From assembly GCA_035544955.1 (NCBI GenBank), contig DASZZN010000033.1, positions 62,001-126,000 of the forward strand: a stretch of DNA of 64,000 bases, given 5' to 3'. Below are positions 44,896-52,868 of the stretch, piece by piece (position 1 is the stretch's first letter; every line of letters starts with the position of its first letter). Under the pieces are notes generated by a model that was not told where the DNA came from, did no database searches, and saw only the letters and a program-made list of their open reading frames with translations. This DNA comes from Candidatus Dormiibacterota bacterium (lineage in GTDB: Bacteria > Chloroflexota > Dormibacteria > CF-121). A program made the position numbers and the translations under genes.

Positions 44896-44943
44896 TGGAG
44901 GCGAGTGCGGGATTCGAACCCGCGGTGTAGGTTTTGCAGACCT
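44896..44943 (-). repeat. tRNA-Cys 3' copy C (outermost att site)
   Basis: 47 of 48 nt match the 3' part of the tRNA-Cys gene (52795-52842), including the encoded CCA, T-arm and anticodon. The rest of the tRNA is missing, so this is not a tRNA gene. AGTTCACCA follows at 8 nt; no GCCGTCA arm precedes it, as expected for the chromosome-side end of the array. Confidence 0.88.
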
Positions 44944-44951
44944 CCGATCGA

Positions 44952-44960
44952 AGTTCACCA
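44952..44960 (+). repeat. Left arm AGTTCACCA, element 1
   Basis: Starts 8 nt after the end of att copy C; the same word stands at the same distance after copies B and A. Confidence 0.6.
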
Positions 44961-45133
44961 AAGGTCGTCCGAGTTCATTCTGTATTGGATTTCAACGCTG
45001 ACCGTTCATTAGCGGTACACCCACTCCTGCCTGGCGGCCGGATGGAGCAGATGGGTGGGGACCTGCTCGGAAAGGTGACTATCTGCGCTGGCCTGCGCCG
45101 CGATCCAACGCCTGTACTTCAGCGCGGAAGCGC

Positions 45134-48100
45134 ATGACCAACCACAAGACGCAGCCGCCCGTCCCCGGGAGCGTGAGCAGCCGATCGGGGATCAGTGCGC
45201 ACTTCACGTCCAGCGGAAACCTGCGACGGCTCGATGCCGGAGATCGCAGCATCCTTCTATATCCGGCCGACGAGCTTGAAGCCGGTCCGGCCAACCTGTA
45301 TTTGCGCCTACGGGGTGACCACGACTGCGAGGCTGTGGCGCTGCTTGGGCCCGGCAGTCCCAGCACGGTCAGCTGGGGCGACACCGGACCCATCATCAGC
45401 GGCGAGTGGCGGGACCTGCAGTACAGCGTCACCTTCCGCCTCGCCGACACCCTGGCTGCGTGGTTCTGGCACATCTCGGTGACCAGCCGGCGAGCCGCCC
45501 AAAGTGAGATCGACTTCGTGTACGCCCAGGATCTGGCGCTGGCCCCCTATGCCGCAGTACGGACCTGTGAGTATTACGTCAGCCAGTATCTCGACCTCAC
45601 GCCAATCGATACGTCGTCGGCAGGCACGGTTCTCGCCGTCCGCCAGAACATGCCAGGCCGCGCGGCTCCTTGGGCCGTCATCGGCTGCCTCAGCAAGGGC
45701 GTCGGTTGGGGCACCGACGCGCTTCAACTGGTTGGGCGCGGGCACCATGCCGGGGCCCGGCCGTCTGGACTATCCGCCAAGGCGCTCCCCAGTACCCGCC
45801 TTCAGCACGAGCACACGCTCGCCCTCTTGCAGGCTCGACCGGTGCAGTTGATCGGCGGCGAAACCGTAGCCACGGGCTTCTTCGGCGTGTACCAGGCGGA
45901 CCACCGAGCGGCAACGTCCGGTCAGGACACGACCGTTGTCGACGAGGCCCTGGGCAAGCCGGAAGCGCAGCCGCCGGCCCAGGGTCCGCCGAGTGGGAAG
46001 CGTTCCGCCGGCGCCCCGGTTGCGGCATCGCTCTTCTCGTCGGCCCCGCCACTGGTGTGCACGCCGTTGGATGACGATCAGCTGGCCGGGCTTACCGGCG
46101 ACGGGCGCCATCACCAGGAGTGGGTCGGCGAGGCCCTGTTCAGCTACTTCACCCAGGACGGAAGCCACGTCGTGACCAGCGCCAAGCAGACGGCGGTCCT
46201 ACGTCCTCACGGCCACATCATGCGGACGGGAACGGCCCTGGCGCCGGACGAGGGCAGCCTCACCACCACGGCCTGGATGGCCGGGACCTTCCTCTCGCAA
46301 GTCACCCAGGGCCATGTCAGCCTGAACCGGATGCTATCCACCCGCCGCAGCTACCTGGGCCTGCGGCAAGCGCATGGGTTACGGGTCTTCATCGAGTCCT
46401 CCGGTGCTCCGCAGGGTTGGGCGCTGCTGGACGGACCGAGCGCGTGGGCCGTCAGGCTGGACTCGTGCCGCTGGTGGTACCGTCATCCCGGCGGCGTGCT
46501 GGAGGTCGTGTCGATCGCGCCTGCCGAGTCGCATCAGCTCGGTCTTGAGATCCGGGTTCTGGACGGGCCGCCCGTACGCCTCCTGATCTGTGCCCACTCG
46601 GCGCTCGGTGGCGATGACGGGCAGGACGCCGAGCCACCAATTCTTGAGCAGGATGAAGCGGGAGTAACGCTGCGACCCCTGCAGGGCTCGCTGGCAGCCG
46701 CCCGATTTCCTACCGGATCGTTCCGGCTCTCATGGGAGCGGGGATCGGTCGAGCGCGTGGGCCGCGATGAAGACCTTTTCCTCGACGGGCAGTCGCGCGG
46801 GCTGCCCTGGATCACGATGCTCACGTCGCCCACGACGAACATGCGTCTGGTTCTGACTGCCGATCTCGTTCCGGCCGGCGACCGGGCCAAGCAGGACCTC
46901 CCAGGCGAAGCCCGGCCCCAGTTCTGGCATCGGATCAGCGATTCCGTGCGGCTGAAGCTCCCAACGGCGTCACCAGCAGCCACGGAGGTTGCGAGACTGG
47001 ACGCAATTCTTCCGTGGTTTGCGCACGACGCGCTCATCCACTACCTATCACCGCGAGGGCTGGAGCAATACACGGGCGGGGGCTGGGGCACCCGGGACGT
47101 CTGCCAGGGACCGGTCTGTCTGCTGATCGCGTTGGGAGAGACGGTGACGTTACGCGACCTGATCAAGCGTGTCCTTCGAGCCCAGAACGCCCGAGGCGAC
47201 TGGCCCCAGGCCTTCGAGTTCTATCCGCGCGAGTTTCGCGGCGGTCAAGGCGATTCCCATGGCGATGTCATCTTCTGGCCTCTTCTCGCGCTCGGAGAGT
47301 ATCTGGCAGTGACGCAAGACCCCAGCCTGCTTACCGAGCGGATCCCATTCGTCGACGACAGCGGAACAACCGCCGATGAGCCGCTTCTCGAGCATGTCCG
47401 GCGAGCGCTGGCCATCATCGCCGCGAGAACGCTACCCGGCACCGCCCTGCCGGCATATGGGCGCGGCGACTGGAACGACTCGCTGCAGCCGGCCGACCCA
47501 CACCTCGCGGCACGCCTGTGCTCCACGTGGACCGCAGTGCTTCAGGTGCATGCGCTACGCACGCTGGCTCGCCCGCTGCGAAGCGTCAGCGTTACCCTGG
47601 ACGGCCCGGGCGCGTCTGAAGCGGTCGAATGCGCAGACCAATCCGAAGGCATCGCCCGTAAGACGGCCGACGGCATCCACGCGCTGCTGATGCGAGACGG
47701 GTTGCTGGCCGGGTATGGCTTGTTCGGTGACGATGGGTCGATTGAGCACCTCGTCCACCCATCGGACCAGCGGACAGGGCTGCACTACGGCGTCCTGCAG
47801 ATCATTCACGCGATCTCGAGCGACCTCCTGTCCCCACGTGAGGCGCGCGAGCACCTGGAAATTCTGCGAGAGCATCTGCTCGGTCCCGACGGCGCGCGAC
47901 TCTTCGACCGACCGGTCCGCTACCAGGGCGGCCCCATGGAGGTCTTCCAGCGTGCGGAGGCCAGCACCTTCTTCGGTCGTGAGATCGGAATCATGTACAT
48001 GCACGCCCACCTGCGCTATGCGGAAGCCCTGGCGCGATACGGCGACGCCGAGCGGCTGCTGGAAGCCCTGGCCCTGGCCAACCCCATCGGCGTCGCCAAC

Positions 48101-52482: not shown

Positions 52483-52563
52483 CGGCGGCCCGGTCCCGTT
52501 GATGGCGAAGTCGGTGGCTTGCACGACGAGGTTGCCGTTGGCGACATTGACGGCCAAGCTCAT
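52483..52563 (-). pseudogene. Rhs/YD-repeat protein fragment
   Basis: The minus strand encodes VNVANGNLVVQATDFAING, the characteristic N-terminal Rhs motif (VNVxxGNLVxQxTD), for 27 residues, then runs antisense into the end of the oxidoreductase gene. No other Rhs sequence is nearby, so this is a relic of an Rhs gene. Confidence 0.45.
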
Positions 52564-52729
52564 CCTAGATTCCGAGCATCGGTTAACCGAAAGGTGCCGA
52601 CCAGGAGGAAGGGGTGGCACGCCGACAAACCTGGGCCGCTCAATTGCGAGCCCAAGAGATAACGCTCCGCAGGCAAGCCGACGAAGCGCGTCGGCGATCC
52701 ATCAAAGTTCGCCAGAGTTCATCGAGGTT

Positions 52730-52748
52730 GCCGTCACCATTGCCGTCA
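52730..52748 (+). repeat. Right arm GCCGTCA double repeat, element 3
   Basis: Two exact GCCGTCA (52730 and 52742), 12 nt apart, 47 nt before the tRNA CCA end. Confidence 0.62.
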
Positions 52749-52794
52749 ACCGCGGCGCGAATGGCGGGGCAGGCGTCAAATCGTATTCAAAAAC

Positions 52795-52868
52795 TGGAGG
52801 CGAGTGCGGGATTCGAACCCGCGGTGGAGGTTTTGCAGACCTCTGCCTTACCACTTGGCTAACTCGCC
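52795..52868 (-). tRNA. tRNA-Cys (GCA)
   Basis: The minus strand folds into a full cloverleaf: acceptor GGCGAGT... with 3' strand CTCGCC, discriminator T (52798) and encoded CCA (52795-52797). The anticodon loop CTGCAAA is closed by GAGGT/ACCTC, and the T-arm contains GGTTCGAATCC. U73 and GCA are the Cys identity elements. It is the intact integration target: partial copies of its 3' part lie at 50084, 48718, 44896 and, decayed, 43225. Mature body is 52798-52868. Confidence 0.95.

Follow-up and report, generated by a model that had tools for sequence, protein, structure and literature searches.

The window (the whole stretch of 64,000 nucleotides that was analysed) carries an intact tRNA-Cys(GCA) gene beside three short elements, here called A, B and C, which lie in tandem and are separated by partial copies of that gene (Table 1). 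The repeated part is the 3′ half of the tRNA gene, 46 nt that begin in the anticodon loop and run to the 3′ end, present in three copies of the same orientation. These repeats, which the initial annotation had placed at 44896, 48718 and 50084, were all recovered, the last of them delimited here from 50090. The next-best match to the tRNA half in the window was 29/46 at 43208 and the best of 50 mononucleotide shuffles also reached 29/46, compared to 44-46/46 for the real copies, so the observation lies far beyond chance. A faint fifth copy near 43225 was therefore rejected as chance. The 3′ half of the intact tRNA-Cys is now part of element C.

Table 1. Positions in the window of the tRNA-Cys gene, its partial copies, and the elements with their arms and genes.
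Feature	Position	Strand	Match, size or support
Element A	44896..48717		3.8 kb, delimited by tRNA-Cys copies
Partial tRNA-Cys 3′ half, outermost (chromosome side)	44896..44941	-	45/46 match
Left arm of A	44952..45010	+	three GTTCAYY units
Cargo of A, 1147-aa glycoside phosphorylase (SOGP / GH94 type)	45134..48577	+	Pfam PF21958 3e-62, PF21250 9e-34
Right arm of A	48631..48674	+	GTTCRCC x2 + TTGCCGTCA/TTGCGGTCA
Element B	48718..50089		1.4 kb, delimited by tRNA-Cys copies
Partial tRNA-Cys 3′ half, boundary A/B	48718..48763	-	44/46 match
Left arm of B	48774..48795	+	
ORF of B, 174 aa	48984..49508	+	no family match
N-terminal remnant of tyrosine integrase in B, 133 aa	49589..49990	-	Pfam PF14659
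Right arm of B	50023..50043	+	integrase-type (GCCGTCAGCTTGGCCGTCA)
Element C	50090..52794		2.7 kb, between the 50090 copy and the intact tRNA
Partial tRNA-Cys 3′ half, boundary B/C	50090..50135	-	46/46 match
Full left arm of C	50146..50261	+	GTTCRYY x3 (10-nt period), gap, GTTCRYY-type units, TTGCCGTCA x2
Cargo of C, cytochrome b561 + molybdopterin (sulfite-oxidase-type) oxidoreductase	50739..52463	+	Pfam PF00174 6e-32, PF01292 1e-7
Right arm of C	52707..52750	+	GTTCRYC x2 + TTGCCGTCA-type pair
Intact tRNA-Cys(GCA), target gene	52795..52868	-	ARAGORN

Repeated arms at the element ends

On the left side of each element, AGTTCACCA occurs at 44952, 48774 and 50146, exactly 56 nt past the start of each copy. 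The gap of 8 nt between copy and motif given in the initial annotation depends on which end of the copy is chosen, but the register itself is constant. Left arms open with GTTCRCC-type units at a spacing of mostly 10 nt, and in element C and in another element of the same genome (C5-D) a second cluster and then two TTGCCGTCA units follow. The density of GTTC[AG][CTG][CT] was 3-7 per 160 nt in the left arms, compared to 0.10 on average and at most 2 per 160 nt in the background, taken from 43 kb of the window. Near the right end of each of the three elements, 44-47 nt short of the next copy or the tRNA, lies a TTGCCGTCA-like pair whose units repeat every 12 nt, and the right arms of A and C are alike in combining two GTTCRCC-type with two TTGCCGTCA-type units. 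In the pair before the 48718 copy one unit reads GCGGTCA, while the pair before the 50090 copy reads GCCGTCAGCTTGGCCGTCA, an integrase-type variant. Both the presence of such a GCCGTCA-type pair before the copies of B and C and before the tRNA, and its lack before the outermost copy at 44896, had been noted earlier and are borne out by the sequence.

The GTTCRCC and TTGCCGTCA repeats look like candidate arm-type sites of a tyrosine-integrase family, because they are spaced by approximately one helical turn, lie on both sides of the anticodon stem-loop core and fall into two classes; such spacing, position and division would suit the needs of an integrase with an arm-binding domain. This reading is further supported because the same repeats flank elements at other tRNA genes. 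Parts of the left arm have been lost in elements A and B, which, given this loss, may be fixed remnants.

Cargo genes and integrases

Elements A and C contain one enzyme gene apiece. The initial annotation had assigned metabolic genes to all three elements, which stands for A and C but not for B, where no metabolic gene is recognisable and the 174-aa ORF had no match in family searches, including Pfam and PHROG. In these searches the genes of A, B and C were enzyme cargo or unmatched ORFs only, with no transfer genes. The ORF of the C cargo is open from 50298 and the homologues begin near residue 143-148, so the gene probably starts at the position given in Table 1. The SOGP protein of A is present in 2 of 60 relatives, and the 17 other genomes of the family yielded no match to the cargo of C. 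The C cargo is 79% and 78% identical to proteins in genomes of two other families; identity of the binding protein PBP6 between genera within the family is 48-56%. Sequence comparison shows the cargo to be patchy or, apparently, horizontally acquired. DNA similarity to the homologues of the C cargo ends at the gene, and no matching element ends were found there.

In agreement with the earlier statement that A to C hold no complete integrase, we found only the N-terminal remnant in B, and tblastn detected no integrase trace in A and C. The remnant reads away from the tRNA and is 60% identical over 116 aa to an intact 409-aa integrase, with a Phage_integrase domain by Pfam, that adjoins tRNA-Cys in G015, a genome of another genus. 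A stretch of 504 nt of element B, comprising the integrase start, right arm and tRNA half, aligns at 73% with the right end of the G015 element. This alignment shows B as an apparent deletion derivative of an integrase-bearing element that has lost its integrase. The search for a full integrase with the N-terminus of B, proposed in the initial annotation, thus had a split outcome: no intact tRNA-Cys-type integrase was found in the own genome or in 14 congeners, and one was found beside tRNA-Cys in G015. The G015 enzyme may differ from the exact helper, as it belongs to another genus and the G015 C28 partial tRNA copy has no GTTCRCC cluster.

Three Phage_integrase genes are present in the own genome, which is 95% complete: one XerC/D-like, one of Ser type and frameshifted on contig C38, and one intact on contig C14. 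The C14 integrase has an HTH excisionase-like partner and is 54% identical to the integrase of a tRNA-SeC element, which places it in the same wider family and makes it a candidate helper; no arm sites were seen beside it. Among the family's elements with both ends on one contig, ten in all, an intact integrase is present in one (G008-Ser, of a different type) and a remnant in B, with no integrase trace in the other eight (A, C, C5-D, C38-Ser, G011, G001, G017 and G014-Ser).

The C14 integrase and its partner lie in a separate mobile island at ~200.9-207.6 kb (L060 985-7719), together with a cytosine methyltransferase fused to an endonuclease-III-like domain and amidoligase/ATP-grasp-like genes, these names, the integrase excepted, coming from reading of the sequences only.

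The tRNA-Cys locus in relatives and the same arms at other sites

The 5′ neighbour of tRNA-Cys (PBP6, binding protein) is kept throughout the family, while the 3′ side differs. The match of G003 to the window runs up to 41767 and resumes at 52753; between these points G003 has ~7 kb of other genes where the window has 11 kb. G011 has a single 2.9-kb element with a left arm and a rifamycin phosphotransferase gene (1535 bits compared to a cut-off of 999), and G001 and G017 have one-gene inserts, encoding a ferredoxin reductase and a nitronate monooxygenase, respectively, which are bounded by shorter tRNA copies and have no left arm. We count the conserved 5′ flank and the variable 3′ side in favour of tandem insertion, and the shared flank with differing 3′ content and cargo upholds the earlier proposal of three sequential site-specific insertions of one family. 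As to what had been expected at related loci, other cargo was present, but these relatives, which are fragmented MAGs, gave no clean empty site in which the tRNA is intact. G014 was considered as an empty site and rejected, as the tRNA-Cys in its assembly has no 5′ half. The rph cassette common to G011 and G002 was likewise rejected as a case of recent transfer limited to the element, since the chromosomal flank is equally similar (97% vs 95%), so that the block moved or was inherited together.

Positions 41767-44896 of the window (SnoaL-like and alpha/beta hydrolase genes) are also missing from G003, with flanks common to both, which means that the variable region begins before the outermost tRNA copy. 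In two relatives the sole tRNA-Cys found is broken: in G014 (L110 850-1120) it has no 5′ half, and in G010 (L106 9900-10000) no T-arm between two TGGAGG repeats. Either an assembly error at the repeated att sequence or recombination damage could account for these genes.

Copies of the tRNA-Cys half were also found elsewhere in the own genome. On contig C5 (G000, L054 7470-14934) ilvA and the next shared gene are separated by an island of ~7.5 kb, in which there are two tRNA-Cys halves with arms and no tRNA; the same place in G012 and G003 measures ~1 kb, and the C5 flanks are collinear with relatives. At one end of the island, a right arm and tRNA half abut the chromosome, which fits integration at a secondary site; no arm is recognisable at the other end, and rearrangement is a possible alternative there. 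We sought a match between the empty site of relatives and the crossover core, and found none. On contig C28, a single tRNA half is joined to the chromosome. The same junction structure at both places indicates that these copies are ectopic insertions or rearrangements, and not the dispersed repeat unrelated to tRNA-Cys that the initial annotation had allowed for. The C5 island also includes a putative Na/Ca exchanger gene and a clpX gene, the latter 92% identical to the clpX beside a left arm in G007 (L105); ilvA is 82% identical.

Similar arms occur at other tRNA genes. Partial copies of tRNA-Ser(TGA) followed by two GTTCGCC clusters and two TTGCCGTCA units are present in G014, in G008 and in the own genome, where C38 has two and C14 a truncated one. 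A different family of the class has elements that are delimited by partial tRNA-SeC copies with GTCCGCC/GTGCGCC/GTTCGCC repeats and two or three TTGCCGTCA units, and the SeC element of G030/L196 has an intact 377-aa integrase that is 40% identical to the Cys integrase. A right arm adjoins tRNA-Thr in G014. With one genome per species, the exact TTGCCGTCA pair was found in at least 118 stretches, mostly from Actinobacteria and Chloroflexota. Among the matches listed, roughly a third of the loci have an integrase-like ORF at most 3 kb from the pair, and the end of this ORF is often just 5 nt away from the motif. In several of the listed loci the 3′ end of a tRNA gene (Arg, Phe, Pro, Ser, SeC) is found at a distance of 70-95 nt, and many have neither an integrase-like ORF nor a tRNA end within the stretch examined. 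The closeness to integrase-like ORFs and tRNA 3′ ends points to the TTGCCGTCA motif as a recurrent companion of the integrase family. Among the papers listed by a literature search for the arm motif, there were only unrelated primer-type matches.

The tRNA-Ser(TGA)-type element on C38 (L057 9023-15740) carries a gene for a 1466-aa RHS-repeat protein, and the frameshifted integrase that adjoins this element has an intact version in G008. Variant arms GTTGCTGTCACGGTTGCTGTCA with GTCCGC/GTTCGC arrays at C29:132418 and 145247 (L123, L124) suggest a further putative member of the element family near 132-148 kb.

Proposed history and comparison with known systems

We interpret the locus as the product of tandem accretion, in which three integrative, integrase-less elements of one tRNA-targeting tyrosine-integrase family were added at the 3′ half of tRNA-Cys, and assign this reading a probability of approximately 0.8. 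Each attP, consisting of a tRNA 3′ half between arm-type sites, would have recombined with the tRNA gene, with the crossover presumably in the anticodon loop, and each insertion would have restored the tRNA and pushed the older 3′ half and the older element outward, making the innermost element C the newest. Elements A and C would represent non-autonomous one-gene versions with their arms retained, for which another element in the same cell most likely provided the cognate integrase. Serial integration by such an integrase, with gene loss in some elements, as shown for B, is the most likely course; alternatively, the elements may have come with an integrase and then lost it, and the remnant in B indicates that integrase loss occurred at least once. 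Neither an excised circle nor transfer was observed, and present mobility of A to C is putative.

The strongest competitor, possible although less probable than tandem accretion, is decay, in which each element arrived with an integrase and transfer genes that were later deleted; what is left would be dead remnants between att sites in which one gene survives. This is the classic origin of CIMEs, which have lost integration and transfer genes, retain attL and attR and often lie in tandem (PMC5704250). Element B is caught in such a state, the frameshifted Ser-type integrase on C38 follows the same pattern, and integrase-type right ends without an integrase occur in G011, G001 and the own C5. 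However, A and C are free of any integrase trace by tblastn, and plain decay does not predict that a one-gene format of 1.1-3.8 kb recurs with unrelated genes in several genomes, nor that full arms persist in C and C5-D. We consider it improbable that the array formed in another host and was transferred whole in one event as a single composite island: CIME-ICE tandems can be transferred as units (PMC5704250) and the own C5 has another two-element array away from tRNA-Cys, but the three copies match the tRNA to different degrees and have different types of arm, and the same combination occurs in no relative. An origin as phage satellites or prophage remnants is very improbable. The integrase belongs to the phage-wide family PHROG 1, but no phage genes were seen in the elements, with no PHROG match for orf174, orf189 or the 176-aa protein of G014, and none of the packaging or hijacking genes of phage satellites (PICI, PICMI, etc.), the other cargo being enzymes; moreover, a search of IMG/VR found nothing related to the intact integrase, and the integrases from phage and plasmid records were all of <60% identity. 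Chance, a dispersed repeat or an assembly artefact can be set aside, even with copies on C5 and C28 and relatives' contigs that often break at tRNA-Cys, given 44-46/46 matches against at most 29 in shuffles, arms or junction structure at the copies, and C5 flanks collinear with relatives.

Taken as a tandem accretion, the array most resembles the CIMEs found with ICE/IME in Streptococcus (PMC5704250), which are att-flanked, without integrase or transfer genes, in tandem at a tRNA 3′ end and partly formed by decay; here, in contrast, there is no resident ICE/IME partner at the locus, A and C have one gene each, and arm arrays are kept. Elements A to C have related attL/attR flanks and no integrase or transfer genes beyond the remnant in B. 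Their descent from an ICE/IME by deletion is putative; integrase loss is shown for B, and A and C have no integrase trace. In anatomy they are CIMEs, and mobilisation by a partner integrase is putative. The tandem ssrA islands of Dehalococcoides, 15 of them without an integration module, form a family moved by serine recombinases (PMC3146451) and share with our array the phylum Chloroflexota, the tandem arrangement at an RNA gene and metabolic cargo. Their recombinases are CcrB-like and act at ssrA, whereas tyrosine-integrase arms at tRNA-Cys, Ser and SeC are found here, with tRNA-Cys as the target and a tyrosine-integrase domain in the remnant. The additive flexible islands of Methylophilaceae (PMC10872708), in the parts of that account considered here, have recurring tRNA-Lys 3′ ends and a variable number of inserts, theirs of 1 to 63 CDS; unlike the present array, they are described there with 20-nt repeats and mostly unknown genes, and those parts describe no arm sites.

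AICEs (PMC3218068) likewise have tyrosine integrases at tRNA 3′ ends, tandem cases and an int gene adjoining att, and many of the matches listed for the TTGCCGTCA pair are actinobacterial loci, frequently with an adjacent integrase gene. AICEs carry rep and tra genes, whereas the cargo ORFs of A to C include none, and in place of the own integrase of an IME or AICE there is only the 133-aa remnant. Integron cassettes and CALIN (PMC11389934) are also single-gene units in tandem arrays without their own integrase, but cassettes use attC and IntI, while the repeats here are tRNA-Cys halves with arms, no IntI-type integrase is present, and the related integrase falls below the integron-integrase cut-off. 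Tycheposons are located at a tRNA and combine large cargo with a tyrosine recombinase; the elements here measure 1.4-3.8 kb and have no intact recombinase. By analogy, the array would work like the tandem cis-mobilizable elements of Streptococcus and Dehalococcoides and the Methylophilaceae islands, and it differs from these in its recurring one-gene format, arms common to different tRNA targets, recombinase type and retained arm arrays.

A tentative extension of tandem accretion, which we hold to be rather doubtful, is a tRNA-based cassette system, in which single genes would be repeatedly captured between standard arms and carried from species to species by integrases whose genes lie elsewhere, one arm set serving Cys, Ser and SeC cores. 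If true, uncultured Chloroflexota would have an equivalent of integron cassettes that uses tRNA genes. The combination of tRNA half, GTTCRCC array and TTGCCGTCA pair provides a sequence handle for short integrase-less insertions, which are easily overlooked in uncultured bacteria, and, as related elements with similar ends are now identified both with and without an integrase, trans-mobilisation of single-gene elements can be tested directly. The rifamycin phosphotransferase cargo at the same tRNA in the genus indicates that this route can carry resistance-type genes among soil bacteria.

In G013 (L101 245-967), a TIR-domain gene lies directly beside tRNA-Cys and is possibly a defence-type cargo.
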